Below are positions 25,628-41,293 of a DNA stretch of 64,000 nucleotides, piece by piece; the first letter of the stretch is position 1; every line of letters begins with the position of its first letter. Both the position numbers and the translations under genes were made by a program. The notes under the pieces are model-generated. The model saw only the letters and a list, made by a program, of their open reading frames with translations. It made no database searches and was not told the DNA's origin. The DNA is from Microbacterium oryzae (GTDB taxonomy: Bacteria; Actinomycetota; Actinomycetes; Actinomycetales; Microbacteriaceae). The stretch spans positions 1 through 64,000 of the forward strand of contig NZ_JAUEPM010000001.1 of NCBI RefSeq assembly GCF_030406385.1, given 5' to 3'.

Positions 25628-25685
25628 CGACACTATTCGGCATCTATCGAAGGATGTCAATACGTGTCAGGATGGAGGCGTGAAC

Positions 25686-26030
25686 ATGCCCCTGATCGTC
25701 GACGCCGCAACCGAGTCGTCCTGCTGCGCCCCGCGCATCACCTCTGCGCTCAGCGATGAGGATGCAGAGCACCTCGCGAAGGTCTTCAAGGCGCTCGGGG
25801 ACGCGACCCGGGTGAAGCTGCTGTCGCTGATTGCGGCGGGCGAGGGCGGTGAGGCCTGTATCTGCGATCTCACCGAGCCGGTCGGGCTGTCCCAGGGCAC
25901 GGTCTCGCATCACATGAAGCTTCTCACCGACGCGGGCCTGGTAACCCGCCAGCAGCGCGGCAAGTGGGCGCACTTCTCCGTCGCCGACGGGGCGCTGGAA
26001 TCCGCTGCGGCAGCCCTTCGCGTCGAGTGA
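25686..26030 (+). CDS. arsR: ArsR family arsenic-responsive repressor
   Basis: 114 residues. The winged helix-turn-helix is seen in FKALGDATRVKLLSLI and LSQGTVSHHMKLLTDAGLV. The As(III)-sensing Cys pair is CIC in EACICDLTEPV, preceded by an extra SSCCAP near the N-terminus. ATG 25686 is preferred because GGAGG lies 7 bases upstream; a GTG 6 bases earlier is also open. As(III) binding would release DNA. Confidence 0.9.
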   Translation: MPLIVDAATESSCCAPRITSALSDEDAEHLAKVFKALGDATRVKLLSLIAAGEGGEACICDLTEPVGLSQGTVSHHMKLLTDAGLVTRQQRGKWAHFSVADGALESAAAALRVE

Positions 26031-26533
26031 GCGCGATAGAGGTCCGCCCGTTCCGCCCCGCGGACTGGTCGGCGGTCGAGGAGATCTACCGGCACGGCAT
26101 CGCCACGGGGCATGCGACGTTCGAGGAGCACCCGCCCACGTGGGAGGAGTTCGACCGAGGGAAGATCCCCGGTCTTCGGTTCGTCGCGGACATCGAGGGG
26201 CGCCTGGCCGGGTGGGTGGCTGCGTCTCCAGTCTCGTCCCGCGCGGCCTACCGCGGAGTCATCGAGCACTCCGTCTACATCCACCCGGCCGCTCAGGGGC
26301 AGGGTGTCGCGCGGGTGCTGCTTGCCGAGTTCCTCGAGGCGTCCGACGCCGCGGGATTCTGGATGGTGCAGTCGAGCATCTTCCCCGAGAACACCGTCAG
26401 CATTGCTCTCCACGAACGGGCTGGATTCCGGCGCGTGGGCGTGCGGGAGCGCATCGCCCTCATGACGTACGGTCCCCTCGCCGGCACCTGGCGGGACACG
26501 GTCCTCTTCGAGCGGCGACGCCCCGCGGAGTGA
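26027..26533 (+). CDS. arsN1: ArsN1-type GNAT acetyltransferase (arsinothricin/phosphinothricin)
   Basis: 168 residues. It begins AIEVRPFRPADWSAVEEIY and has EHSVYIHPAAQGQGVARVLL (acetyl-CoA motif A), then ENTVSIALHERAGFRRVGVR and GTWRDTVLFERR. This is the phosphinothricin acetyltransferase subfamily. Members in ars clusters are named ArsN1 and acetylate the amino group of arsinothricin, an organoarsenical antibiotic. GTG 26027 overlaps the arsR stop (GTGA), so it is co-regulated by arsenic. The substrate is inferred from family and context. Confidence 0.82.
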   Translation: MSAIEVRPFRPADWSAVEEIYRHGIATGHATFEEHPPTWEEFDRGKIPGLRFVADIEGRLAGWVAASPVSSRAAYRGVIEHSVYIHPAAQGQGVARVLLAEFLEASDAAGFWMVQSSIFPENTVSIALHERAGFRRVGVRERIALMTYGPLAGTWRDTVLFERRRPAE

Positions 26534-26543
26534 GACCGCGACG

Positions 26544-26945
26544 TCAGGCGGTAAGGCGCGCGGCAAGGGCTCGGACGTGCGCCGCCACGTCATCCCGCAG
26601 GCCCCGCACCTCGTCTGCTTCCCAGTTCGCAGGGTCGGGAAAAGACCACTCCACGAGCTCCCCGCGCACCGGGCCGGGCAGGGGAAGGCCGGGCTTCATG
26701 AGCACGACGACGTCTGCGTCCTGGAGGTCCTCCGGCGTGACCAAGCGAGGCTTCGCCGCGGTGGTGTCGATGCCGAGTTCGGCGAGCGAGGAGGCGATCG
26801 CGGGGTTGATGGCATCCGCGGGAGCGATGCCAGCGCTCATGGCCGCGAGGCGCTCATCATCGAGGTGCGTCAGCAGATGCGCGCCGAGCTGAGAGCGACC
26901 GGCGTTGTGCTTGCAGATAAACAGAATACTCTTCGGCTTCGTCAT
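26544..26945 (-). CDS. Arsenate reductase-like LMW phosphatase lacking the distal Cys pair
   Basis: 133 residues. The P-loop is FICKHNAGRSQLGAHLL (Cx5R) and the Asp loop is SFPDPANW, as in low-molecular-weight phosphatase-type arsenate reductases. Where the other two ArsC domains in this island have GCGDxCP, this one has LMKPGLPLPGPV with no Cys. It may use mycothiol/mycoredoxin, or dephosphorylate something else. ATG 26945 has AAGGA 7 bases upstream. Convergent with arsN1, 10 bases between stops. Confidence 0.75.
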   Translation of the reverse strand: MTKPKSILFICKHNAGRSQLGAHLLTHLDDERLAAMSAGIAPADAINPAIASSLAELGIDTTAAKPRLVTPEDLQDADVVVLMKPGLPLPGPVRGELVEWSFPDPANWEADEVRGLRDDVAAHVRALAARLTA

Positions 26946-27040
26946 ACCCATGTCCTTCAGTGTGGGGACGCGGATGACGAGCGGGTGAACCCGTCGTCGA
27001 CAGAGTTGCGCACTACATAGACTGTTGTCAATATAGAAGC

Positions 27041-28012
27041 ATGTCGATACAAGAGGTTGAGCTGCTGATCATCGGATCTGGTCCCGCCGGGTACACCGCG
27101 GCCGTCTACGCCGCGCGCGCCGGTCTGCAGCCGGTTGTGCTGGCCGGGTCCGTGACGGCCGGTGGGGCGCTGATGACGACCACGGAGGTTGAGAACTTCC
27201 CCGGGTTCATCGACGGCATCCAGGGCCCTGACCTCATGGACGCCATGCGGCAGCAGGCCGAGAGGTTCGGCGCGCGCATCCTCCTCGACGACGCGATCAG
27301 TGCCGAGCTCGAAGGCGACGTGAAGGTTGTCCGGACGGGCGCTGGTGAGACGTTCCACGCGCAGGCGGTCATCCTCACCATGGGGTCCGCGTACCGCAAG
27401 CTCGGTCTCCCCGACGAGGAGCGACTGTCGGGTCACGGTGTGTCATGGTGCGCCACATGCGATGGGTTCTTCTTCCGTGAGCAGGAGATCGTCGTGGTGG
27501 GGGGTGGGGACTCCGCGATGGAAGAGGCGCTGTTCCTCACCCGGTTCGCCTCGAAGGTCACCCTCGTGCACCGTCGTGGCGTGTTCCGGGCCTCGAAGAT
27601 CATGGCCGAGCGCGCGCTCGCGCACCCGAAGATCGACGTCGCATGGAACAGCGAAATCGCCGCCCTCGTCGGGGAGGACAAGGTCGAAGCCGTGCGACTG
27701 CGCGACACGGTCACCGGCGACGAGCGGGAGCTGCCCGCCACCGGCGTGTTCGTCGCGATCGGGCACGACCCGCGCTCCGAGCTCGTCACCGGCCAGGTCG
27801 AGACCGACGACGACGGGTACGTCCTCGTGGACCACCCCACCGCCCGCACGAACCTTCCCGGGGTCTTCGCCGCGGGGGATCTCGTCGACCACACCTACCG
27901 GCAGGCGATCACCGCCGCCGGCACGGGATGCGCGGCCGCGCAGGACGCCCAGCACTACCTCGCCGCCCGCGACGGTGTCGTCCCGGCGCGCGCCGGGGAG
28001 GTGTACGCGTGA
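27041..28012 (+). CDS. arsT: Thioredoxin reductase-like protein of the arsenic operon (ArsT)
   Basis: 323 residues. FAD-binding [20 protein letters not shown], redox-active [15 protein letters not shown]-binding [16 protein letters not shown], and FAD tail [16 protein letters not shown] make it a normal low-Mr thioredoxin reductase. It should supply reducing power for ArsC. In Streptomyces ars clusters a similar gene is named arsT. ATG 27041. The acr3 GTG overlaps its stop. Confidence 0.88.
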
Positions 28013-29121
28013 GCGCCACCACCGCGTCCCTGCCCCAGGTCGCCACCACGCGCCGCCTGTCGCCCCTTGACCGGTGGCTTCCGCTCTGGATCGGCCTGGC
28101 GATGGTCGCCGGACTCCTCCTCGGACGGTTCGTTCCCGGCGTGTCCACGGTGCTCGCCCGCCTCGAGGTCGGCGGGATCTCCATCCCCATCGCCCTGGGG
28201 CTGCTGGTGATGATGTACCCGGTGCTGGCGAAGGTCCGCTACGACAAGGTCGCCGCCGTTACCGGCGACAAGAAGCTCCTCGTGTCCTCGCTCGCCCTGA
28301 ACTGGCTGGTGGGGCCAGCGCTGATGTTCGCTCTGGCATGGGTGTTCCTGCCGGACCTTCCCGAGTACCGCACCGGCCTCATCATCGTCGGCCTCGCGCG
28401 GTGCATCGCGATGGTCGTCATCTGGAACGACCTGGCCTGCGGCGATCGAGAAGCGGCCGCGGTGCTCGTAGCGATCAACTCCGTCTTCCAGGTTATCGCG
28501 TTCTCGCTGCTGGGGTGGTTCTACCTCACCGTCCTACCTGGCTGGCTGGGACTGGACAGTCAGGGTCTGGACGTATCGGTCGGGCAGATCGCCATGAACG
28601 TGCTCATCTTCCTCGGCATCCCGCTCGTCGCCGGGTTCGCGTCCCGGTACGTCGGGGAGCGCCGCCGAGGACGCGCCTGGTACGAGGAGGCGTTCCTGCC
28701 GAAGGTCGGCCCGTGGGCGCTGTACGGGCTGCTGTTCACGATCGTGCTGCTGTTCGCTCTGCAAGGCGAACAGGTCACCACCCGCCCCTGGGACGTCGTC
28801 CGCATCGCGCTGCCGCTGCTGGCGTACTTCGCGGTGATGTGGTTCGTCGGGCTCCTCACCGGGAAGACTCTCGGCCTCGGATACGCCCGCTCTTCCACGC
28901 TGGCGTTCACCGCGGCGGGCAACAACTTCGAGCTCGCCATCGCCGTCGCGATCGGCACGTTCGGCGCCACCTCCGGGCAGGCCCTCGCCGGTGTTGTCGG
29001 GCCTCTTATCGAGGTGCCCGTGCTCGTCGGCCTCGTCTACGTCTCCCTCTGGGCCGCGCGCACCTGGTTCGCCACCGACCCCTACGCCATCCCCACCGCC
29101 GACGACAGGACTCCCCGATGA
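28009..29121 (+). CDS. acr3: Acr3 family arsenite efflux permease
   Basis: 370 residues with about ten membrane helices. The conserved Acr3 segment [18 protein letters not shown] includes the essential Cys, and [20 protein letters not shown] is the second signature. It exports As(OH)3 using the proton gradient. GTG 28009 and the next ATG both overlap, so arsT-acr3-arsRC is translationally coupled. Confidence 0.93.
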
Positions 29122-30110
29122 GCACGACCGTCCCCCCCACGCCCGTCGACGCCGCCTGCGCCCCGTCGTCCACGCACACGATCGGACAGCCCGCCGCCGC
29201 CGCCCTCGCCGGCACCCTCAAGGCCCTGTCCGACCCGCTGCGGCTGCGGATGCTCTCCGCAATCGCCACCGACGCGCGCGGGGAATCGTGCGTGTGCGAC
29301 CTCGCCGAGCTCGCAGACGTGTCCCAGCCCACCGTCTCCCACCACCTCAAAGTGCTCCGCGACGTGGGTGTGCTCACCTCCGAACGCCGCGGCACGTGGG
29401 TCTGGTACCGCATCACTCCGGAACTGCGACCCGCGGTCACCACCCTCCTGGACTCCTTCGCCCCCGTCGCCGTCCACCCCCACCCGGCCGAGTACGGCGG
29501 ACTCGAGAACGTCGACGACGCCCTCACCCGTCTCGCCAACGTCCTCCACAGCCTGCACCCGTCGCTGAGCGCGGACCTGGTGACCACCGTGGTGCGGGAG
29601 TCCTACACGTCCCTCGCCAGGAGCGCCCGCATGAAGACGCACCTGCTGGCCCTTACCGAGCACTTCGCCCGTCAACGCCTCGCCGACATCACCCGCGACC
29701 GCACCAGCGGACAACCACAGGTGCTGTTCGTGTGCGTCGCCAACGCCGGCCGCTCCCAACTCGCCGCCGCCCTCGTCAACGAACGCTCCGGCGGGACGGT
29801 TATCGCCCGTTCCGCCGGGTCCGCCCCCGCCGCCGAAATCCACCCCACCGTCCAGCCCCTCCTCGAAGAGATCACCGGCACCACCGATGAGGGACGGTTC
29901 CCGAAGCCCCTCACTGACGACGCCGTCCGCGCCGCCGACGTCGTCATCACCATGGGCTGCGGAGACGTATGCCCCGTCATCCCCGGCGTGCACTACGAAG
30001 ACTGGGCCGTCGGCGACCCCGCCCTGGCCTCCGCCGAAGGCGTCGCCGCCATCCGTGACGACATCGCCCACCGCGTCGACGCCCTCCTCGCCACCCTCAC
30101 CACCGACTGA
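29118..30110 (+). CDS. ArsR-helix bundle-ArsC fusion protein
   Basis: 330 residues in three parts. Residues about 25-110 are an ArsR winged helix (LKALSDPLRLRMLSAI, ESCVCDLAEL, QPTVSHHLKVLRDVGVL). Residues about 125-195 form a three-helix segment (DALTRLANVLHSLHPSLSAD and ARMKTHLLALTEHFARQRLA), seen in some mycobacterial ArsC-like proteins. Residues about 200-325 are an arsenate reductase with CVANAGRSQLAAAL and ITMGCGDVCP. A single chain thus joins a sensor-repressor to the reductase. ATG 29118 overlaps the acr3 stop. Confidence 0.88.
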   Translation: MSTTVPPTPVDAACAPSSTHTIGQPAAAALAGTLKALSDPLRLRMLSAIATDARGESCVCDLAELADVSQPTVSHHLKVLRDVGVLTSERRGTWVWYRITPELRPAVTTLLDSFAPVAVHPHPAEYGGLENVDDALTRLANVLHSLHPSLSADLVTTVVRESYTSLARSARMKTHLLALTEHFARQRLADITRDRTSGQPQVLFVCVANAGRSQLAAALVNERSGGTVIARSAGSAPAAEIHPTVQPLLEEITGTTDEGRFPKPLTDDAVRAADVVITMGCGDVCPVIPGVHYEDWAVGDPALASAEGVAAIRDDIAHRVDALLATLTTD

Positions 30111-30122
30111 ACCGGAGACACC

Positions 30123-30524
30123 ATGACCGCTCAGAAGCCCTCCGTCCTGTTCGTCTGCGTCCACAACGCCGGCCGCTCTCAGATGGCCGCCGGATTCCTC
30201 CGCCACCTCGCCGGCGAACACATCGAAGTCCGCTCCGCCGGGTCCATGCCCGCCGAGCAGATCAACCCCGTCGCCGTCGACGCCATGGCTGAGCTCGGCA
30301 TCGACATCATCGCCGAGCAGCCCAAGGTCCTCACCACCGAAGCCGTCCAAGCCTCCGACGTCGTCATCACCATGGGCTGCGGCGACGCCTGCCCGTTCTT
30401 CCCCGGAAAGCGCTACGAGGACTGGAAGCTCGACGACCCGGCCGGGCAAGGCCTCGACGCCGTCCGGCCCATCCGCGACGACATCCGATCCCGCATCGAG
30501 CAACTCGTCGGCGAACTCCTCTGA
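30123..30524 (+). CDS. arsC: Arsenate reductase (LMW phosphatase type)
   Basis: 133 residues. P-loop FVCVHNAGRSQMAAGFL, then ITMGCGDACP with the resolving Cys pair, then YEDWKLDDPAGQ with the Asp loop. It reduces arsenate to arsenite for export by Acr3. It follows the fusion gene after 12 bases. Last gene of the operon. Confidence 0.92.
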   Translation: MTAQKPSVLFVCVHNAGRSQMAAGFLRHLAGEHIEVRSAGSMPAEQINPVAVDAMAELGIDIIAEQPKVLTTEAVQASDVVITMGCGDACPFFPGKRYEDWKLDDPAGQGLDAVRPIRDDIRSRIEQLVGELL

Positions 30525-30576: not shown

Positions 30577-31689
30577 GTGAACTCAGGTCATAGCGGCGCA
30601 ACGGCTCTGCGGCTCCTCGGAAACGTGCGGCCGCTGGACGAGAAGCAGTTCGTCTATGACGCGATGCTCGCAGGGTGGAGTGATCAGCAGTCCAGCCGAG
30701 GTCTGGCCGCTTCGACGATCCGCAGCCGGGTTCTCACCGTCCGGCGCTTTGAAGCGTTCACCGCCAAGTACCCGTGGGATTGGTCGGCCACGGACGTCGA
30801 GGACTACACAACGCGGCTGAAGTCCAGAACTCGTCCCGCCTCACGCTCGACCATCCGCGCGTTTCAGACGATCGTGCGCCTGTTCTGCGACTACCTCTGC
30901 GATGGGCGCTACGAGTGGGTGATGGAATGCGAGCGCCGCTTCGGACGGGCTCCCCAACAGGTCTGCCATGAGTGGAACACCACCGCGCACCTGGTCGACT
31001 ACGAAGGGCGCGCGCAGCGCCGGGCGCTCACCTACGACGAGCTCGAGCGATTCCTCGCCGCCGCCGACGCCCGCGTTGAAAGCATCCTCGCTCAGGGCCG
31101 TAAAGGGGCTCTGGCTGCCTTGCGGGACGCGCAGATCTTCAAGACGATCTACGCCTACGGACTTCGCCGGGCCGAGGTCGTCGGGCTCGACCTCGCGGAC
31201 CTGCGTCCCAACGGCGCAGCTCCCAGGTTCGGACGTTTCGGTGCCGTCGAGGTGCGCTGGGGCAAGGGCGCGAACGGTTCCGGCCCTCGGCGGCGCACGG
31301 TGCTGACCGTCCCCGAGCTCGGGTGGGTCACCGAGGGTCTCGCTCAGTGGGTTGACCACGCACGACCACGGTTCACGTCCGAGGCCGGGATGCTCTGGCC
31401 GACCGAGCGCGGCAGCCGCGTGAGCCTGCGTTATATCGACCTGCGTTTCGCGGCCCTGCGCGATCAACTGGGACTCCCTCCCGAACTCAGCGTCCACGCC
31501 CTTCGCCATACCTATGTCACCAACCTCATCGAATGGGGCTACACGGAGAAGTTCGTTCAGGACCAGGTGGGGCACGCCTACGCCTCGACCACCGCGATAT
31601 ACACCTCGCTCGGAGACGACTACAAGACGCGCATGGTGACCCGTGCGCTCGCCCGCATCTACGGAGGAAACGATGCCCACAGCCGCTGA
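30577..31689 (+). CDS. Tyrosine recombinase, first gene of a three-gene integration module
   Basis: 370 residues. A SAM-like N-terminal core-binding part (about 30-130) is followed by the catalytic domain. The Arg is in YAYGLRRAEVVGL (about residue 196), HxxR in HALRHTYVTNL (about 307-317), GH in DQVGHAYAS, and the nucleophile is probably Y in TTAIYTSL. The set of residues is complete, so the enzyme should be active. GTG 30577. It reads towards the comEC junction at 33594 and overlaps the small HTH gene by 17 bases. Confidence 0.92.
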   Translation: MNSGHSGATALRLLGNVRPLDEKQFVYDAMLAGWSDQQSSRGLAASTIRSRVLTVRRFEAFTAKYPWDWSATDVEDYTTRLKSRTRPASRSTIRAFQTIVRLFCDYLCDGRYEWVMECERRFGRAPQQVCHEWNTTAHLVDYEGRAQRRALTYDELERFLAAADARVESILAQGRKGALAALRDAQIFKTIYAYGLRRAEVVGLDLADLRPNGAAPRFGRFGAVEVRWGKGANGSGPRRRTVLTVPELGWVTEGLAQWVDHARPRFTSEAGMLWPTERGSRVSLRYIDLRFAALRDQLGLPPELSVHALRHTYVTNLIEWGYTEKFVQDQVGHAYASTTAIYTSLGDDYKTRMVTRALARIYGGNDAHSR

Positions 31690-32020
31690 CGACAGCCCGA
31701 TCACCTGGCAGCTGCGCCAGGTCATGGCCACCGCCGGAATGTTTCACACGACCGACCTCATCGACCCGCTGCGGGAGCAGGGCGTGTCCTTGTCCCGTGA
31801 GCAGATCTATCGCCTCGTGACGAAGACGCCGGAGCGGCTCAACGTCGAGGTACTCGCCGCCCTGTGTCGCATCCTCGACTGCACACCCAACGACCTCATC
31901 GACGTAGCGCCCGCGGCCGCGGCACGCGCGCCACGAGCTGTCGGCGAGACCCGCAGTTCGGGGCCCGCCATCGGCTCGCTCCGCCCGATCCCAGCGAAGC
32001 TCCACCGCCCTGCAGACTGA
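31673..32020 (+). CDS. Small helix-turn-helix protein of the recombinase module
   Basis: 115 residues. A Xre-type helix-turn-helix is present (about 40-80): GVSLSREQIYRLVTKTPERL then NVEVLAALCRILDCTPNDLI. The tail is basic and Ala/Pro-rich. ATG 31673 lies inside the recombinase gene. It may set the direction of recombination or repress the module. Tn554 also has a small third protein (TnpC, 125 residues); that comparison is by layout only. Confidence 0.78.
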   Translation: MPTAADDSPITWQLRQVMATAGMFHTTDLIDPLREQGVSLSREQIYRLVTKTPERLNVEVLAALCRILDCTPNDLIDVAPAAAARAPRAVGETRSSGPAIGSLRPIPAKLHRPAD

Positions 32021-32035
32021 GACACAGAGCCGACC

Positions 32036-33502
32036 ATGAACAACGGGTGGAAGCGCCGGTGCGACTCATGCGAGCGCGACGTCGAGGCTCGCTACGAGAT
32101 CCTCGGGCAGCGCATCTGCAACGCCTGCTACAGCCGGCTGCGACGGAATGCCGCCACCTGCCCCGGATGCGGAGTGACGAAGGTTCTGGCCTTCCGTTCC
32201 GATAGCGGACAGGTCGTCTGCGCCACGTGCGCCGGCGTCCCTGCGCGATTCGGGTGCACCCGATGCAGTAGCGAGGAGTTTCTCGCCGGGTCGCACTGCG
32301 GACGGTGCCGACTCGAGGAGCGGCTGAACGAGGTCCTCACCGACGACCAAGGTCGAATCCATCCGCAGCTTGCCCCGCTACGCGCGCACCTCCTGAGTAC
32401 CCGTGACCCCCGCTCAGCTGAGCGGTGGCTGCGCCGTGAGCCCACCGGCGCCACTCTCCGAGCGATGGCAGGGGGCTTGAAGCCGGTCCGCCATGAGACC
32501 CTCGATGAACTTCCACCCTCGACCCGCCTCCGATACTTCCGGCGGACGCTCATCGCGGCGGGCTGTCTGCCCGAGATCGACGTGCGACTGCACGACCTCG
32601 CGTTGCGCACGGAGAGCTTTATTCAGACGCTCCCCGCCGATCATGCCGTTATCGTGGCGCGGTACTTCTCGTGGGAGACGCTCCGGAAGCTGCGTCGACG
32701 GCCACTGGACCGCCCGGTCAGCGTCGGCGTCGTCAATACCCGCACGACCGAGGTCCGGAAGATCGCCGCGTTCCTCGCTTGGCTCGATGAGAACGACGTG
32801 GAGCTTGAGACTCTCCAGCAGGTCGCCCTAGACCGCTATCTCGCACATCGGGACCCGCATCGCGCCCTCGCACGGTTCCTGCGTTGGGCCGTGCACCATC
32901 GGGTCATGCCGAGGGTCCGTCTCCCGCCGACCCCGAGGGTAGAGCGCGGCCCAGCCACGAACGCAGATGCGCTCTGGGACCACGTCGACGTGCTCCTGCA
33001 CGACGAGACCACGCCGCTGCCAAGCCGCATCATCGGACTCTTCCTGCTCGTGTTCGCCCAGCCAATCAGCGACTCCGCACGCCTTCGCCGCGACGCCGTG
33101 CAGGGATACGGCGAGGAACTCACCGTCAGGTTCGGCACCACACCCGTCAAGATGCCCCCACCGATCGCCAGCCTCCTTCAACAGCATCTCGCCGAAGCCG
33201 GGAACCGCCGGCCGTACGTCGGGCAACCATCGGCGTGGCTATTCCCCGGCACCATGCCCCAGCAACACGTCACCGAGGACGCTGTCAGAGGGCATCTTGC
33301 AAAGCACGGTTTCCATGCCCGCGCTGCCAAGCGAGCGAGGCTCCACCAGCTCACTCAGGTCCTCCCGGCAAGCATCGTCGCCGACATCACCGGATACGCC
33401 GTTCAGACGGCGGTGCGTCACGCTGCGAAGTCGGGAGCGGCATGGGGGGCATACCCCGAGCTGAGGGAAAGCGAGACCTCAGAATTGGACGGGCACAAAT
33501 AA
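32036..33502 (+). CDS. Triple zinc-ribbon, recombinase-like protein of the module
   Basis: 488 residues. Six CxxC pairs (Cys 9/12, 28/31, 42/45, 62/65, 74/77 and 88/91) would make three zinc ribbons in the first 91 residues. The rest resembles a tyrosine recombinase in order: a helical core-binding part, then RIIGLFLLVFAQPISDSARL, and near the end ARLHQLTQVLPASIVADITG. The usual HxxR is not conserved there (RLHQLTQ) and no nucleophilic Tyr is clear. It is likely a DNA-binding partner of the first recombinase rather than an active enzyme. ATG 32036, 15 bases after the HTH gene. Confidence 0.75.
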   Translation: MNNGWKRRCDSCERDVEARYEILGQRICNACYSRLRRNAATCPGCGVTKVLAFRSDSGQVVCATCAGVPARFGCTRCSSEEFLAGSHCGRCRLEERLNEVLTDDQGRIHPQLAPLRAHLLSTRDPRSAERWLRREPTGATLRAMAGGLKPVRHETLDELPPSTRLRYFRRTLIAAGCLPEIDVRLHDLALRTESFIQTLPADHAVIVARYFSWETLRKLRRRPLDRPVSVGVVNTRTTEVRKIAAFLAWLDENDVELETLQQVALDRYLAHRDPHRALARFLRWAVHHRVMPRVRLPPTPRVERGPATNADALWDHVDVLLHDETTPLPSRIIGLFLLVFAQPISDSARLRRDAVQGYGEELTVRFGTTPVKMPPPIASLLQQHLAEAGNRRPYVGQPSAWLFPGTMPQQHVTEDAVRGHLAKHGFHARAAKRARLHQLTQVLPASIVADITGYAVQTAVRHAAKSGAAWGAYPELRESETSELDGHK

Positions 33503-33574
33503 TGCTGATTGCCAATACCATCGACCAGCTCATCCGCGAGTTCGTCTCCGAGGGAGGGAAGCCCGAGGGCTGGC

Positions 33575-33620
33575 GGCCGGGATGGGAGCCGCGCTACTCG
33601 ACCGCACCGGAGACGGCGAG
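33575..33620. other. Recombination junction within comEC, left copy (att-like)
   Basis: On the minus strand comEC similarity ends in the codons for SLSHLLAVSGA and is followed at once by a stop (33594) and the recombinase module's flank. The junction core is TCTCCGGTGCGG. It is matched by the junction at about 39785, where the similarity ends after AVSG. Confidence 0.55.
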
Positions 33621-34378
33621 CAAATGCGAAAGGGACGCCGCTTTCATCGCCGTGTCCAGGTCCTCCGAGACGGCGCGCGTGTCCCCGACAGCGAGGCCTG
33701 GAAGGAGCATCGATCCCGGCTGCGGCAGGGTCGACGCACGCTCGACGAACGTGTCGCGAAGACCGGCCGCGATGGCCAAGAGCGCCGGTGGCGCGGCGAG
33801 CACCTCCGTCTCACACGCGAACACGACGAGCACGGCCCGATCACCAGCATCACCGGCGATGGCGCTTCCGTTCACCGTTGCGACCGAGCCGAGGTCGAGC
33901 TTCTCCCCCTTCGCCGCATCCGCAGCCACGCTTACCGTCACCGACATAAGGCCCTGCAGCGTCTCGTCGCCGCGCCGGACGGCGGACGCCTCGGCGTCGA
34001 ACCACAGGGCTTCTCCTCGCCGCTCGACCTTCGACGTCACGGACAGCTCGAGGTCGACCGCCTCGCCGCCGCCCGCGGCGAACTCGCCTACCGCGACACG
34101 AGCCGGCTGCGCCAACGCGACGTGGCTGGCCACGGCGCCCGCAGCCGCAGCCGCAGCCGCGCAGGCTATCACCGCCATCGCACACAGCTCCGGCAGGCGA
34201 CCCGCCGCCATACGGAGAGCCAGCTCGCCACGAGGACGACAGCACCGATCGCCACGCCGAGAGCGATCGCCGGCACGACCACGCTCAGCAGCGCAGCGCA
34301 CCAGCAAGCCACTGCGACCGCAACCATGCGCCGATCACGCGGAACTGCACCTGCAGGAATCCGCTCGGCGCTCGACAT
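33594..34378 (-). pseudogene. comEC: 5' fragment of comEC, second (divergent) copy, frameshifted
   Basis: It starts at ATG 34378 with membrane helices (CWCAALLSVVVPAIALGVAI), then changes frame near 34215-34225. It continues MAVIACAAAAAAAGAVASHV and KVERRGEALWFDAE to GSMLLPGLAVGD, ending SLSHLLAVSGAVE. This is the N-terminal quarter of ComEC (DUF4131 domain and the start of the competence core). It differs clearly from the copy at 39754, so it is not a recent duplication. No comEA precedes it. Confidence 0.75.
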
Positions 34379-34583
34379 GGCGCAACGCTACGAAGTGAGC
34401 GCGGGGCACGGGCACACAGCGAGCCTCGTGTGAACGCCTCCGGACAGCCACGGCCTTGGGGACGAGAGACCGGCGCCATCTACCCACAAATCGGGTGTCC
34501 CTTACTCGTGCAGCAGACCCGTGATGTCGGCGGCACCGGATACTTTGGGGGCGAGACACCTGTTGGAAACCGGGAGGACGGCC

Positions 34584-35522
34584 GTGACCGATTCGCTGCT
34601 CAGATCGCTCCGAGACCACATGATGGACGAAGCCGAGCCTCTTGCGGGTCTCCTGCGCAAGTGTCTGCTCCTTGGTGCGGAGACGGGATCTGTCTCGCTC
34701 AGGCAGTGGGCGCGGAAGGAGTTGCACGGCTACGAGGATGCGGACGAGTTACCCGGCTATCGGAAGCTGCCCACGCCGCCGATCTCCGCAGACACGCTGA
34801 GCGGGAATACGTGGGCCTCGAACATGACCTACAGCGTGCTTCAACTGCCGTCCGCCGCGCGTGAGTACTTCCGCGACGGATTCTTCCTGTACCAGCCAAT
34901 TGAGGAACTGGAAAAGATTGCCGCACAGAAGTCGGCATCGTTCACGGGCCCGGGCCTGGCCTACGCGCAGCATGCGTGGAACAAGGGACTTCCCTTCGGC
35001 CAGCAGGTTGTCAACCTGAGGTTCACCCTCTCGGGGTCGACGTTCGCCGGTGTCCTGGGCCAGATCCGCACGCAGCTCGTAGATCTTGTCGCTGACCTTA
35101 CAGCGGGCACGCCACTCGAGGAGCTGCCGCGGAAGGAGCTCGTCGACGCGGCGGTCGGCACCCACATCGGCACGCAGTACAACACGACGATCCAGACGAT
35201 GAACGGCGCAACCGCGATCGGTGACCAGGCCAGGGCGAAGAGCGAAGGGCTCAGCGTCGATGATGCGATCAGGTTGCTCGACGCCGTGCGGACCGCGTCC
35301 GGCGACGTTAGCGATGCGGACGCCAAGTCGGAGCTGCTGAAAGCCATCGAGGACCTCCGAGGCGAACTGCAAGCGGACTCACCGGAAACGAGTGCCGTCG
35401 TCACGAAGGCTGGGAGACTCAAGGAGATCGCGGCGAAGATCGGCGGTGCTGGTGTGAGCGCAGCGGCTTCCGGCGTCATTGAGGCGGTCACGGCCCTCGT
35501 CATGAGTGGCGCCTTCGGCTGA
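34584..35522 (+). CDS. AbiTii domain protein, putative phage-defence gene
   Basis: 312 residues from GTG 34584, with GGAGG 6 bases upstream. The N-terminal part LAGLLRKCLLLGAETGSVSL then RQWARKELHGYEDADELPGY matches the AbiTii domain of abortive-infection proteins. The middle is alpha/beta; the C-terminus ends in a hydrophobic Gly/Ala-rich helix (IGGAGVSAAASGVIEAVTAL). The gene after it starts 10 bases downstream, so they form an operon. Defence role inferred from the domain and island location. Confidence 0.7.
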   Translation: MTDSLLRSLRDHMMDEAEPLAGLLRKCLLLGAETGSVSLRQWARKELHGYEDADELPGYRKLPTPPISADTLSGNTWASNMTYSVLQLPSAAREYFRDGFFLYQPIEELEKIAAQKSASFTGPGLAYAQHAWNKGLPFGQQVVNLRFTLSGSTFAGVLGQIRTQLVDLVADLTAGTPLEELPRKELVDAAVGTHIGTQYNTTIQTMNGATAIGDQARAKSEGLSVDDAIRLLDAVRTASGDVSDADAKSELLKAIEDLRGELQADSPETSAVVTKAGRLKEIAAKIGGAGVSAAASGVIEAVTALVMSGAFG

Positions 35523-35532
35523 AGGTGACCAG

Positions 35533-36804
35533 ATGGCCTCGAAACTTGACCTCTCCCCTGCTGCACGCGATCTCCTGAAGCGGGTGAAACAACGCTATTT
35601 GACGTCGCGAGACTTCAACGGGCTGCACCTCCGCCCCGACCAAACTTCCGCCGAAGAGATCGCGGCCGCGATCGAGGTCGTTGAAGCGGATCTGGTTCAG
35701 GTCGTGGGACCAGACGACTACATCAACATCCACATCCGTCCCTGGCCATCGCGCCGGGCTATGGCCGCGCAGGTCGAGGAACTGCGCGACTTGTCGGGGG
35801 ACGACTATGGCGTTGTCCTCTATCCGATGGCGAAGGCTATGAAGTCGGTCAAGCTCCCGAAGAAGTACGAAGCTACCCCGTTCTCGCGTGCGATGGCGCG
35901 TGGCCGGTCGACGCTAGAAGTCGCATTCTTCAGCGCGGACGTCCTTGAGGGCTATCGCAACGACGCCCGGTTCCGGTTCGGCATGAGCGACTTCGGCATC
36001 AACTTCTGGCTGACTGACGAAGCGAGTGACGACGAGGACCACTCGGACAAGGACAGCGTCTCGCTCGTTCATCTGGGCTTCGCATACGACATGCGAAAGT
36101 ACTCCCCCGAGGATCCGGAGTCACCGATCGTGCGACGCGTCGCTGCGTTCTACGGCGATCTGAAGAACCTGACCCCCGAGCACCAGCAACGATGGTCCAG
36201 CTATCAGGTCGATACCGACGGAATAGACCCTCATCCGGTCTGGTTCGCGTCGCAGATGGGCACCTGGCCGGACGGCGTCGGACCGTTCGGGCGGCTAAGA
36301 CAGGAACTCGAGAACATCAACGAACTGTTCGAGAACGTGTGGGGCATGAAACTCTTCAGGACCCACGAGGCCCCCGACGACTTCGGCTGGATCCTGCGGG
36401 CCGACCAGAGGGAGTGGGACCACTTTATTCACTCCCTCGACAAGCTCCTATCAGACAACATCAACGGTTCTGCCCTCGACAATGCGGGGGTCGAGAGGAA
36501 GAACTCTGCCGGGCAGCCGATTGGCACCCTTGTTCGCCTCGAGCGGTTCATGAGGATGAACCACGTGGAACCCGACAAGGCAACCTGGGCGCTTGCACCG
36601 TTGCGCGAGGTGAGAGCCGCGCGCCAGAAGCCTGCGCACTCCCTACGCGCCAACGTCACTGACAAAACGTTCGTCCGCAAGCAAATGCGCTTGATGCACG
36701 ACGTGAACGAAGTACTTATCAACATGCGTCAATGGCTGGCGAGCCATCCGCGGAATCGCGAATGGTCTGATCCGCTGTCCGGACTCAAGAACTACCCCAT
36801 TTAG
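35533..36804 (+). CDS. Unknown protein paired with the AbiTii gene
   Basis: 423 residues, ATG 35533 with GAAGGTG upstream. No family recognised. Residues 1-60 are helical. The centre has strand-rich segments (FGMSDFGINFWLTDEASDDE; VSLVHLGFAYDMRKYSPEDP). The end is helical and basic (EVRAARQKPAHSLRANVTDK then LMHDVNEVLINMRQWLASHP), somewhat like HEPN-type RNA-cleaving folds, though no RxxxxH signature is certain. Operon partner of AbiTii; probably the effector or sensor. Confidence 0.6.
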   Translation: MASKLDLSPAARDLLKRVKQRYLTSRDFNGLHLRPDQTSAEEIAAAIEVVEADLVQVVGPDDYINIHIRPWPSRRAMAAQVEELRDLSGDDYGVVLYPMAKAMKSVKLPKKYEATPFSRAMARGRSTLEVAFFSADVLEGYRNDARFRFGMSDFGINFWLTDEASDDEDHSDKDSVSLVHLGFAYDMRKYSPEDPESPIVRRVAAFYGDLKNLTPEHQQRWSSYQVDTDGIDPHPVWFASQMGTWPDGVGPFGRLRQELENINELFENVWGMKLFRTHEAPDDFGWILRADQREWDHFIHSLDKLLSDNINGSALDNAGVERKNSAGQPIGTLVRLERFMRMNHVEPDKATWALAPLREVRAARQKPAHSLRANVTDKTFVRKQMRLMHDVNEVLINMRQWLASHPRNREWSDPLSGLKNYPI

Positions 36805-36916
36805 CCGCGAAGGTCGCCATGTACCCGCTCAGCGGCGATATCGCCGAGACGCATCGATACGAGGCGGGTGTCGACTGGCGATTGGACCGGCGAGCCGTGC
36901 CGGGCGGCTGAGCCCG

Positions 36917-39558
36917 TTACCACTCACCCTCCTGTTCTCGCTGCACGACTTCGTTGAGCTGCGCTTCGAGGTGGCTAATCGTACGGCGGCACCAGCGCAT
37001 CGCGCCTTCGGATTGGCCGGGCTCCGTGAGCCAGCGTCCAACCTGTGCAATCTGATTGCGGTCCGGACCGACTCATTACCGGTCCAACCGCCGGAAACGA
37101 AATCCCCCAGAAGGATGGCGGAGACAGTCTCGTCGTCGGGGAAACGCTCCAGAAGGAACGAAGCGACAGGACCAAGCGTGTTGTCACCGACCGAAGCGAC
37201 CGGTGCCACGACGCGCGCCCGTTCCTCGGATTCGCCGAGCCACTCCTTAACGACGTCGAGGTCCGCGGCGTCAGCAAGCCACCCGCGCGCAGCGAAGGAC
37301 AGGCGCCACGAGTCGCGGAGGGCGAGTCGGTCCATGACCCGGCACCAGGCGGACGGGTCCGAAGCCCCGATAGCGTTCCTGAACAACTGCTTTTCGTGAG
37401 AGTCCGAGAAGATTCTGACGGCATCACTCTCCACCAGCTCCACGAGGGCATCGAGCACTCGCTCCGGCGCCCGCTCGAGCTCCCCCCTGGCGAGGGTGAC
37501 CCAGTCGTAACTTTGCTGTCCGACGTCCGGGAAGGCCTTGCGCATCATGACGATCTCGCCGATGAGCTCACTCAGCTCGGCCGACGGCCCAGGTCGATCG
37601 TGCAAAGCGAAGGCTATGACGTCGACTAGGGCGTTGTAGTCGGCCTGAGTTTCGACGCGAGCCTTCCATCCGACGATGAGGTCACGTAGCGCCTCCTCAT
37701 CTTCCGAATCGCGCACTCGGTAGAAGACCGTGCGGGCACCATCGGCCACCGACACCCGCCGCAATAGCTCCGCAATCCGTACCTCAGAACGAGCCGTGGA
37801 AGGCCCCTGCGCGGTGAGACGGAGTTTCACGACAGCGTCGAAGTTGGCGGCGTCAACAAACGAGTCGTACGCGCCGGGATCCGCTTCGTCTCGGGCGAGA
37901 AGGTATCCGATGAGCGCGCGCTGGTTCGGACCCCCCAAGCAGTCGACGAGAAGCTTCTCAATGCGATACTCCGCGGCACCAAGCCGCCCGATTGCGCGAC
38001 CGATGCTGAAGTCCGTGGGCACTGCGGTCGTCAGGGTGCCCGCCAGCGCCAAGGCGGCTTCGGCCGGACGCAGGTCGCTGAGGATGCCAAGCAGCTCGGC
38101 CTCGACATCACTGTTGCGCCGGTCCCACGGCGACGAGTGAGAAACCACCCAGAGCCGGTCGGCAATGGTGCCTTCCGGCAAGGCGGCGACCATCGCATCG
38201 AGCGCCTCGCGATAGTTGCGCTCGTCGCCGCTACGGGAGTAGAGCGACTCCAGACTCGCGATCTCGGCCCGCGTGCGCTCCAGTTGCGAAGGCAACAGCG
38301 TCGCGAGAGTCGCCGCCAAATGGTCACGCAACCGATCTATGTCCAGGAAGCCATGGATGGCGCCGGTGAGCGCCTCGACGGCGGCGTCCGCCACGCTCGT
38401 CTCTGGATCATCCGCCAGCGACCTAGCCAGGTCGACAGCCGCGTTGCGGTAATCCCAGGAATCACTCCGGGTAGCCGGCATTCCGCGGGGCTCGACGACC
38501 CCGCCACCCTGCAGTTCGCCCGAAACGATCGTGGACTCGTTGGTATCCAGCGCACGGCGTGCCGCTCGCACGACCAGCTTGCGGACCACCGGATCCTCCG
38601 ACTGCGCCTTCTCACGCAGGTAGGACAGGCGGGAGTCCGGCGTCGCCGCGGTGGACGGAAGCATGGTGCCGAATAGCTCGATCCAGACCGCAGTCGAGTT
38701 GTTCGAATATGTTTCGTTCTCAGCCAGGGCGAGACGAAGGAGCGAGTCGGCCGCTTCGGCGAAGGTCGCCCTGTGCCAGGCGAGCTCCTGCAACGCCCAA
38801 ACGAGCGACTGCCTCGCAGCGGTAGCGGCCTGAAGGGCCTCCTGGGAGCTGCTTTCCAGGAGCTCCCAAATGCGCCGCGACACGCGCGCGGGAGAAAGAA
38901 TTGCGAGGTGGTCGAGAAGATTCGTTCGCCGATCCCCGGACACGGCCTCCAACGAGCTGAGCGGCCCGTCCGCCCCGAGCATCCTGTCGACCACTTCCCG
39001 GGGCAGCGATGCGTCGCCAATCTCGGCCGCTCGCGCGAAGAGGCGATGGACCATCTCGTCACTGAGCTGCGGGATGAGATCCGTCACGACTCGGGATCCG
39101 AACTCCGACCATCCGCTCGAAGCAAGGTAGATAGCGACCGGACTCGGGCCGACGCTGCGGTAGCGTCCCTGCCGGGCCAGCAGCCCATTGGCAGCGAGCT
39201 GCGAAGCGGCTGCCCGGAGGTCGTTCTCGGGAATCCCCAGCGATTTGCTGATGATGCGGAGCTCTTCTGCTGGCACGCCGTCGAATCCGAGCCGGCTAAG
39301 AAGGGCGAGAGCGCAGGACGCTAAGAAAAGTGCGCCGCCCGGGAGTTCGTCCACGATGAACTGTCGAATGTCGCTCGGGCTCACTAGCTGGCGTGCGGTA
39401 GCGGATCCCTGAGCGATGAGTGCCTTGGCGCACTTCAGCGCATAGTCAATGTTTCCGGCGGACACCTCAACAATCACCCGAGCCGCTTCAGGCCACAGCG
39501 CAGGCACGTTGGCGAGGAGCAGTTCCGAGAGCGGCTCGTCTTCGAAAGCAGTAATCAA
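36917..39558 (-). pseudogene. Large protein resembling an NTPase C-terminal region, missing its N-terminus and with a C-terminal frameshift
   Basis: The open frame starts with SELLLANVPALWPEAARVIV and a winged-helix-like segment, as found after the ATPase core of STAND/AAA proteins. About 700 residues of helical repeats follow. No Walker A is present. The frame is open upstream of the TTG at 39558 to about 39620, near the island boundary, as if the 5' part were deleted. Near 37068-37075 one missing base shifts the frame; the better tail is NQIAQVGRWLTEPGQSEGAM then SHLEAQLNEVVQREQEGEW, with a stop at 36917. Perhaps a defence NTPase. Confidence 0.55.
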
Positions 39559-39784
39559 CAGGGGGTCAACTCTGATAAGCCCAATAGGTCGGCTCGTGGC
39601 CCACGATCCAAGGGGACGGCAGACCCGAGGAACTCACAGCCCTGGCCGACGCGCGCCTTGTTGCATAGAGTGGCCCCGGCTCCAGGAAAGCGGCCCCCAA
39701 GTGCGGCTGATGTCGGCCGTCTACAGCTACGAGCGCCGGTCTCATCAAACCGATCAAGTCGCCCACCCACCCTGGTTTGCAACG
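39559..39784. other. Right boundary zone of the island
   Basis: No gene seen. It links the truncated large gene to the comEC break. The comEC reading frame enters from the right and becomes unrelated sequence at about 39785, ending at 39754. No inverted repeat or duplicated target is obvious by eye. Confidence 0.4.
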
Positions 39785-40539
39785 GTATCTCCGCTCACCG
39801 CGGTCAAGTGCGACAGCGATGACGTCTTCATGGCCGCGTCGAGGTCGTCTGAGACGCCGCGGTCATCGCCGACGGCGAGCCCGGGCAACAGGCCGGCACC
39901 TGGCTCGGGAAGCCCTGCCGCGACGTCGTGCACGAAGCCGTCCCGCAGCCCGCTCATGAGCCCCAGCACGTGCGGCGGCCCGCGCATCACCTCGCCCCGC
40001 TCTGCGAAGACGACCAGCACCGACCGCTCGCCCGCGTCGCCCGGCTTCGCCGACCCCCGCAGGGTCACCACCGACCCGAGGTCGAGAGCCGGGCCATCCC
40101 GCAGCTGCGCCGGCTCGATCGAGACCGTGATGGGAATGCGCAGCGGGATCTCGTCGCGCCCGCCGCGCAGCCGCGCGGTGTCGCCGTCGAACCACAGCGC
40201 ATCGCCCACCTGGCGCACCTTCGTCGTGAGCGTCACCGTCGCCTCGACGACGCGGCCGGGCTGCGTCGCCAATGCTCGCGCCGACGCGCGATCGCCCTCG
40301 GCGACGGCCACATGCGCCGCGACGGCCCCGGAGACGGCCAAGGCCACCGTGAGCAGTGGCATCGCGGTCGCGATGAGCCGGCCACGTCGCACCGCGAGCA
40401 GCACCACCAGCGCGAGCGCCGCCATCCACAGCCCGACGGCGACGCCCGCTGCGGCCATCGGCAGCAGCACGCACACGAGTGCCACCGCCCAGACGACGCC
40501 GGCGATCGGCAGCAGGCGGAGGTCGCGAACGCGTGTCAT
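39754..40539 (-). pseudogene. comEC: comEC, 5' part only, interrupted by insertion
   Basis: ATG 40539 overlaps the comEA stop (ATGA), the normal comEA-comEC arrangement. Membrane helices (LLPIAGVVWAVALVCVLLPM; TAMPLLTVALAVSGAVAAHV) and the DUF4131 region (VRQVGDALWFDGDTARLRGG) lead to GAGLLPGLAVGDDRGVSDDL and SSLSHLTAVSG. Beyond that the native ANC... continuation is replaced by DTVANQGGWAT and a stop. About 250 of an expected 700-800 residues remain, so DNA uptake through ComEC should be lost unless the 3' half is expressed elsewhere. Confidence 0.88.
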
Positions 40540-41153
40540 AACGTCACCAGCGGACGGAGGGTCTCGAGCATCTTGTCGCCGATGCCCGGGACGGCGAGCA
40601 GGTCCTCGACCGCCGTGAACGGCCCGTTCTCGTCGCGCCACGTCATGATGCGCTGCGCGAGGGCGGGGCCGATCCGCGGCAGTGTCTCGAGCGCTGCCTG
40701 GTCGGCACTGTTGAGACTCACCAGCGCTCCCTCGGCGGATGGCCCCGCTTCCGTTCCCGGGGGCGGTGCAGGTGGAGGCGGCTCCTCCCCCACGACCGGC
40801 ACCCCGAGCTGCTCGCCGTCCGCGAGCGGGCGCGCCAGATTCACCGCTGCGGCATCCGCGTCCTCGGCGAGCCCACCGGCTGCCGAGATCGCATCGACCA
40901 CGCGGGCGCCGGTCGCCAGCACGTAGAGCCCGGGTTCTTGGACGGCGCCGTGCACATGCACGAACAGCTGCCCGGCCTCGGCGACGGGGCTGCTCGTGGG
41001 TGCCACGGTGACCGCGACCTCCTCCACGGGGGAGGAAGCGCCACGCCAGATGCCGATGCCGACCGTCACGGCGAGGGCGGCGAGCACGAGCACGACCACC
41101 CCGCCCACGCCCAGGCGGGCGCGCGGCGATCGGAAGCCCGTCTCGGCGCTCAT
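40536..41153 (-). CDS. comEA: ComEA competence DNA-binding protein
   Basis: 205 residues. One membrane helix near the N-terminus (VGGVVVLVLAALAVTVGIGI), a SLBB-like domain (QLFVHVHGAVQEPGLYVLAT), a Pro-rich linker, then the helix-hairpin-helix pair LNSADQAALETLPRIGPALA and FTAVEDLLAVPGIGDKMLET. It binds incoming DNA at the cell surface. Intact, although its partner comEC is broken. Confidence 0.9.
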   Translation of the reverse strand: MSAETGFRSPRARLGVGGVVVLVLAALAVTVGIGIWRGASSPVEEVAVTVAPTSSPVAEAGQLFVHVHGAVQEPGLYVLATGARVVDAISAAGGLAEDADAAAVNLARPLADGEQLGVPVVGEEPPPPAPPPGTEAGPSAEGALVSLNSADQAALETLPRIGPALAQRIMTWRDENGPFTAVEDLLAVPGIGDKMLETLRPLVTL

Positions 41154-41293
41154 CCTCGTCACGCTAGGCGGCGACGGGCACCGAGGGCCGGGCACAGGCG
41201 AAGCGGCGCGCGCCACGCCGTGCCCACCCGCCTGTGCAGACGGCGACGCAGCGGATCACGGCCGGCGCGAGCGCTCAACTCCAGTGGATGCAC

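Follow-up and report, generated by a model that had tools for sequence, protein, structure and literature searches.

ComEC is the membrane channel for DNA uptake, and the use of competence genes as integration sites by mobile DNA is already known. Integrating elements have been described that reuse an orthologous but imperfectly conserved site within the competence genes comK, comM, comYC, comFA and radC (Croucher et al. 2016, PMC4774983). In the parts of that paper considered here, comEC is mentioned twice, and one of the two mentions refers to the pore rather than to a target. Prophages have been described in comYC and ssbB of pneumococcus (PMC12637031), and comEC of Piscirickettsia salmonis is broken by transposable elements while other competence genes remain (PMC12955456). 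The word comEC does not occur in the main text of the study of large serine recombinases by Durrant et al. 2022 (PMC10083194), and the gene may be among the supplementary targets of that paper. The sections consulted of two other papers (PMC11472951, PMC3948429) have no bearing on comEC insertions. Searches of open-access full texts listed no paper on serine-integrase islands in actinobacterial comEC such as those described below.

In Microbacterium oryzae a mobile island has split comEC at one conserved spot. By analogy, this split fits the known pattern of mobile elements disabling DNA uptake. The initial annotation of this DNA had drawn a parallel with insertions into comM and radC, and the parallel is apt. 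Both cases involve an orthologous site inside a competence gene that is used repeatedly, but here the target is comEC, the DNA channel itself, the hosts are actinobacterial and a large serine integrase is the likely enzyme (PMC4774983). The recombinases of Durrant et al. belong to the same enzyme class, and diverse recombinases were likewise found to share one conserved coding site (PMC10083194), whereas the integrase branch, the attachment-site arms and the actinobacterial hosts come from the present analysis. The pneumococcal prophages also insert into and inactivate a protein-coding gene of the DNA-uptake machinery, as would be the case here, but they are streptococcal prophages in other genes, while the present islands carry defence and metal cargo and, in two cases, relaxases (PMC12637031). 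In P. salmonis, as here, comEC is broken by mobile DNA; however, several transposons at non-identical positions are involved there, and the islands described here use one codon in many species (PMC12955456).

The window, meaning the whole stretch of 64,000 bases that was analysed, covers positions 1-64,000 of a contig of 813,916 bases (C11, NZ_JAUEPM010000001.1) in the M. oryzae genome (G000; 3.09 Mb in 23 contigs). The host comEA gene (positions 40536-41216, minus strand) encodes HHH and SLBB domains according to Pfam, and its product has 91.6% amino acid identity to that of the comEA adjoining the intact comEC of a related genome, G032. It overlaps by a few bases with comEC, which starts at 40539. 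The native 5' part of comEC runs from this start codon to a GG core in the block encoding ...LSHLTAVSG (39791-40539, minus strand) and has 86.6% DNA identity to the G032 gene over 752 bases. The host frame ends after ...SSLSHLTAVSG, the last core base is 39791, and the DNA from 39790 downwards is not comEC. It had been proposed from the sequence that the host order comEA-comEC is kept up to the SLSHLTAVSG codons, where an island interrupts the gene. Both points hold, and the two native parts of the gene stop and resume at one codon.

The missing 3' half, for which a search had been recommended, was found in the same genome on another contig, C22. Its frame continues from the very codon at which the 5' part stops (...VSG|ANCALVVG) and extends to the end of the gene. 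A PF03772 search of the whole genome gave a strong match on C22 (111121-111828, profile positions 28-267) and a weak one at a second comEC fragment at 33.6 kb in the window; the 5' part at 39.8 kb scored 20 bits. Only the C22 piece and the 33.6-kb fragment were reported by this search, and no intact comEC, which would have spoken against the split, was detected in the genome by it. Comparison of the junctions with comEC of intact relatives showed that the host 5' and 3' parts both match the G032 gene, an open frame of 808 amino acids, and break at the same codon. The DNA identity of the 3' part to G032 comEC is 86.3% over 1587 bases, and the amino acid identities are 87.4% for the 5' part and 89.4% for the 3' part. 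Since both parts have about 86% DNA identity to the same gene, they are the two pieces of one native gene. In several relatives comEC is directly followed by a gene that is found here some 8 kb further on; we take its product to be a DNA polymerase III delta-like protein. C11 and C22 are unjoined in the draft assembly, and we infer that they are joined via the island.

The site of the break is conserved. Among 31 intact comEC genes, the 50 bases round the core rank 9 of 2178 windows in DNA conservation, and the eight windows ranked above all overlap one block, VVKVAHHGS, so the core lies in the second most conserved block of comEC. This agrees with the earlier proposal that a conserved insertion site would be usable in many hosts, and the same codons are indeed hit in other hosts. 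Beside the 3' half a large serine integrase gene starts (C22:111861-113384, 507-517 amino acids), which is directed away from the 3' half and encodes Resolvase, Recombinase and zinc-ribbon domains, with PF00239, PF07508 and PF13408 all above the cut-off. A D5-type primase is encoded next.

The attP site of a serine integrase typically consists of mirror-image arms flanking a 2-base core. At the left end of the island an attP-like arm, P', was recognized (39765-39790, minus strand), which mirrors the arm before the comEC 3' half on C22. After the core GG the sequence of the left end is AGATACCGTTGCAAACCAGGGTGGGT; that of the right end, taken from the core as the reverse complement, is AGATACGGTTGTATAGAGGGGTGCGT. 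These arms are identical at 19 of 26 positions; the mean for random pairs is 7.0, and none of 20000 random pairs reached 19. The arms are also mirrored in G153 and G269 (18/26 each), G208 (15/26; reached by 20 of 20000 random pairs), G142 (14/26; 77 of 20000) and G187 (13/26; 257 of 20000). By plain comparison the arms of G324 (7/26), G144 (6/26) and G002 (3/26) are not mirrored. By eye those of G324 mirror after a one-base shift and those of G033 mirror too; the arms of G033, G185, G289 and G308 were compared by eye only. Thus the features of an attP-type site, two mirror arms round a short core and an integrase gene at one island end, are present. Because the integrase adjoins the 3' half and the ends carry attP-type mirror arms, the C22 integrase is the likely agent of the split. 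No relatives of this integrase were found in viral contigs, and the relatives in phages or plasmids (476 and 61 records) all have less than 60% identity.

It had been predicted that other hosts would be hit at the same site, and this was borne out both within Microbacterium and in other genera. A PF03772 match is present in 360 and absent in 6 of 366 genomes of the genus. Genomes that stood out in score or in match number were examined further, 17 in one round and 149 in another scan. comEC is split at these codons in 12 of the 366 genomes, including M. oryzae (G000, G033, G142, G144, G153, G185, G187, G208, G269, G289, G308 and G324), and for each of the 12 both junctions were read. In nine of them (G033, G142, G144, G153, G185, G187, G208, G289 and G308) the two comEC parts share a contig and are separated by other DNA, from about 15 kb (G289) and 16 kb (G144) up to 95 kb (G153) and 148 kb (G033); in G000, G269 and G324 the parts are on different contigs. 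An integrase of the C22 kind is located at or within about 5 kb of one comEC end in 11 of the 12 genomes. It lies by the 3' half in G000, G033, G142, G153, G187, G208, G269 and G324, while in G144 (L020:7640-8323), G185 (L068:5314-5961) and G308 (C205:29285-29923) a diverged integrase, with a match to its C-terminal part only, lies on the 5' side. No integrase of this kind was found near the split comEC of G289. On C104 of G324, two diverged serine integrases in tandem adjoin the comEC 3' half (L070:2147-5000), which suggests stacked islands or an element with two integrases.

Several other outliers are not counted as split. These are G337, with a match from profile position 32 in an open frame of 929 amino acids; G285, G247 and G256, for which match positions only were used; G171, in which the match is whole (1-267); G214, whose two pieces are on separate contigs and whose first piece reaches the end of its contig; G091 and G103, which were covered by the 149-genome scan only; and G263, G315 and G322, which were read from the match table only. 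Ten genomes have two matches to the 5' part. In eight of them the pieces adjoin on one contig and represent one gene read in two, and in G124 and G311 the second match is located either on a small contig or where a contig ends.

A scan of genome contigs from other genera gave eight loci, and six of the eight integrases border comEC. In five loci (a Microbacteriaceae MAG, Cryobacterium luteum, a Curtobacterium MAG, Candidatus Lumbricidophila and Leucobacter ruminantium) the integrase abuts the 3' half of comEC, and in a Pseudarthrobacter locus it abuts the 5' part. There is no comEC beside the integrase in the Arthrobacter Hiyo8 and Gordonia loci. In a sample of 329 genomes of the family, five have a match at 1e-60, namely M. 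oryzae itself and four others, and in two of these four the integrase abuts comEC. Close integrases that do not border comEC include two in G174, one each in G571, G683 and Arthrobacter Hiyo8, and a degraded one in G232. Wider relatives are mostly away from comEC: 6 of 30 loci border it within flanks of 1.5 kb, and 4 more have it within 5 kb. The two integrases of G174 (L073, L074) are close relatives of the comEC integrases, and the comEC of this genome is intact and not adjacent to them; a shift of target is possible.

In a maximum-likelihood tree of 36 integrases the label 'borders comEC' requires three changes, which may be one gain and two losses, compared with a mean of 12.1 after shuffling; none of 500 shuffled sets was as low. 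On one branch, with a support of 87/91 that is below the starred level, 16 of 19 rows border comEC, the exceptions being G571 and the two of G174. This branch contains two sub-branches that are only about 35-39% identical to one another. As both are found at comEC, the specialisation of the branch looks old, with few shifts. The tree includes 36 of 43 sequences. The seven excluded ones, all shorter than 300 amino acids, are three that border comEC (Leucobacter and the remnants of G144 and G185) and four that do not (Arthrobacter Hiyo8, G683, G243 and G002x); the degraded G232 copy is also absent. The tree has long branches (GordoniaOt and the second G324 row), the second G324 integrase is labelled as bordering comEC despite the other integrase between the two, and the rows were picked with an integrase profile built from three sequences, one of which (G033) was in the wrong frame. 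Related integrases have used the same comEC position repeatedly, as indicated by the 12 genomes of the genus, the clustering in the tree and the loci in other genera. A branch of integrases specialised on a conserved comEC codon block in several actinobacterial genera would provide a clean test of whether elements gain by silencing transformation. It also supplies actinobacterial serine integrases together with predicted natural attB and attP sites.

It is highly probable that a comEC-specific island with a large serine integrase integrated into the host comEC. The island may have arrived by conjugation or mobilisation, given that relaxases occur in the islands of two relatives and a coupling protein in one. 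Judging from the arms at the ends and the position of the break, the integrase would have joined attP at the GG to an attB formed by the codons of ...SHLTAVSG|ANC.... comEC is split, with the 5' part by comEA on C11 and the 3' half by the integrase on C22. Since the split separates the N-terminal part from those for the channel and the nuclease, the gene would be inactive and DNA uptake would be lost. Under the hypothesis of Croucher et al. 2016, the loss of ComEC may then protect the island against removal by transformation.

The window contains a second comEC 5' fragment, N2 (33607-34378, minus strand), which begins near the start codon without a comEA, is frameshifted and extends to the same GG core at 33607-33608. 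The initial annotation had stated that a second comEC fragment ends at the same codons. The shared end is correct, and the fragment is not part of the host gene. N2 has 49% amino acid identity to the host 5' part, and its best DNA match among the genes compared is G214, with 68.6% over 525 bases, which places it in another lineage. N2 as the missing half of the host comEC was rejected, because it too is a 5' part and is, moreover, foreign and frameshifted. Across the core from N2 there is the start of an SRAP-like gene (33502-33606, plus strand), whose first 35 codons, MLIANTIDQLIREF...PRYSTA, are cut where N2 begins; this was assigned by BLAST to 33578 and by eye for the rest. On a Microbacterium plasmid the SRAP gene is intact after the same recombinase gene that precedes it here, the last 28 window bases of the match being assigned by eye. 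An extension of N2 by a few bases past the core was also considered and dropped, since the following bases belong to the SRAP-like frame. Because N2 ends exactly at the core, recombination by an integrase may have occurred there, in another host or in another round, and N2 is probably what remains of a second event at this site. It is most readily explained by an event in a different host, after which N2, joined to cargo at the core, arrived with the island.

Two further genomes, G002 and G128, contain a 5' part that extends to the core and a P'-type arm, followed by other DNA (about 9 and 18 kb, respectively) and then by an intact comEC next to its normal downstream genes. No serine integrase of the C22 family was found in the stretches read, and the only PF07508 matches of these genomes are elsewhere. 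The two 5' copies of G128, that of the intact gene and the orphan, share 89.6% identity over 734 bases; their match starts 18 bases ahead of the start codon and reaches the core, whereas the match between the orphan and its counterpart in G144 extends about 175 bases upstream of the start codon. Just before its intact comEC, G002 also carries 31 residues of the 3' half. The presence of an orphan 5' part together with an intact comEC in two genomes makes repair possible. When both 5' copies were compared with the 3' half, the Spearman coefficients were 0.92 and 0.92 for G002 and 0.88 and 0.86 for G128, with controls down to -0.47. In intact controls the N and C parts share their nearest neighbour in only 18 of 31, and the host pair (N1/C) has a Spearman coefficient of -0.23 (Pearson 0.81), yet the two have the same clear nearest neighbour. 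It is conceivable, if rather unlikely, that some islands, or later repair, leave a working hybrid comEC, so that the gene is split, restored and split again at one codon. A second 5' piece, extending from about the start codon to the core, lies immediately ahead of the host 3' half in G002 and G128. If the hybrid reading were true, new 5' halves of the channel gene would also be spliced in at the core, and N2 would be a relic of such a piece. In G128 (L023:7773-10602) and G144 (L020:3076-5902) two genes lie between comEA and comEC and the usual overlap is broken. Their products have 518 and about 425 amino acids and are presumably a photolyase/cryptochrome-related protein and an amine oxidase.

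The recombinase module in the window, which had first been taken for the agent, consists of a tyrosine recombinase with a Phage_integrase match (30577-31689), a Cro/C1-type HTH protein assigned by Pfam (31643-32020) and, as the last gene, a 488-amino acid protein without a Pfam match (32036-33502), all on the plus strand. About 100 bases separate the end of its last gene from the core end of N2, a proximity that would suit an element targeting comEC. However, among 20 loci of relatives of the last gene, each with a flank of about 1.5 kb, only the window's own adjoins a comEC piece. Relatives of the 488-amino acid protein occur in 79 of 295 genomes of the genus, and relatives of the unit are common on plasmids (243 and 548 records). 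The unit is followed by the truncated SRAP-like gene, intact at that place on the Microbacterium plasmid, so the comEC joint is not where the unit ends. It is serine-type arms and the serine integrase that adjoin the native comEC flanks, and the tyrosine unit is internal. In comM-type and Tn554-type islands, by contrast, tyrosine recombinase genes are located at the ends that meet the target. On these grounds the tyrosine unit was rejected as the splitting agent; that it is a comEC-targeting element is very improbable, and as far as the evidence goes it is a passenger of the island. The same genes are found in units on actinobacterial plasmids, for example NZ_CP077418 and NZ_CP012698. One of two plasmid regions examined has ars genes next to the unit. 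Such genes lie upstream of it on NZ_CP077418, and they and trxB are annotated beside it on a Rhodococcus plasmid. Still less credible is the view that there was no site-specific event and that comEC is decaying or was broken by the assembly. The two parts do lie on different contigs of a draft assembly, as they do in G269 and G324, but this view is refuted by nine of the 12 split genomes, which carry both on one contig, all broken at the same codons.

Two other explanations accept the site and differ on its history or its meaning. There may have been two or more rounds at one site: comEC would first have been split by one serine-integrase island, N2 would have restored or re-formed the site, and another island would then have entered the gene containing N2, so that today's two ends stem from different elements. 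The position of N2 inside the island, ending at the core, is in line with this, and the orphan 5' part, P'-type arm, other DNA and intact comEC of G002 and G128 could represent an intermediate. The two ends of G144 and, by eye, of G185 carry unlike arms, as composites would. In addition, the arms of different elements of the common type cross-match at 10-20 of 26 positions, so the ends in M. oryzae could stem from two rounds and need not be one pair. However, the core of N2 joins the SRAP fragment and not a P' arm, and the left arm of M. oryzae matches its own right arm best (other right arms reach 16 at most), although its right arm and the left arm of G269 match at 18. Repeated rounds are a tentative reading and somewhat doubtful. 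A little more plausible, though still short of probable, is the view that the site is used only because it is conserved and dispensable DNA, the loss of competence being a side effect without gain to the island. The position of attB in the second most conserved 50-base block of comEC would on its own be a good reason for targeting, and a shared site in a prolyl isomerase gene is also described in the parts of PMC10083194 considered here. The same parts report, however, that competence genes are strongly enriched as targets of serine recombinases, and insertions in competence genes recur in unrelated lineages (PMC4774983). Integration of a comEC-specific serine-integrase island remains the preferred reading.

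The island DNA on C11 is taken to occupy 1-39790; C11 starts at base 1 of the window, and the comEC 3' half lies on C22, with the join taken as above. Next to the P' arm is a gene for a defence-like protein (36829-39558, minus strand) that matches PD-Lambda-4_A in PADLOC from profile position 354 on. As this gene lacks a match to about 350 N-terminal profile positions and is situated at the island end, DNA near the P' arm, beside position 39558, may have been deleted. The cargo continues with a 432-amino acid protein that has no Pfam or PADLOC match (35506-36804, plus strand) and an AbiTii-like abortive-infection protein recognized by Pfam and PADLOC (34521-35522, plus strand). Beyond the tyrosine unit there is cargo of the metal/arsenic type (25680-30524, mostly plus strand, with 26544-26951 on the minus strand), in which Pfam identifies GNAT and SBF-family (ACR3-like) proteins. 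We take other products of this region, named from their sequences, to be ArsR-, thioredoxin-reductase- and arsenate-reductase-like proteins. On C22 the stretch past the integrase, all or part of which may belong to the island, encodes the primase, an N6-methylase of the restriction-modification kind and AbiD-like, HipA-like and Fic proteins.

The island of G142 carries a type I restriction-modification system and a relaxase, and that of G208 carries a relaxase, a TraG-type coupling protein and an N6-methylase. The two relaxases are 44-45% identical, and from their gene content both islands look mobilisable or conjugative. No relaxase of this type was found in the window or in L003, L004 and L030 (C22 of M. 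oryzae). A protein of about 390-420 amino acids recurs in or near comEC islands; two copies are without a Pfam match, and the one copy scanned with PADLOC had none there either. It is encoded in G002 (L025:6749-8005), on C22 of M. oryzae (L030:6717-7940) and in G187 (L093:3174-4076), and the other two copies are 48.7% and 33% identical to that of G002.
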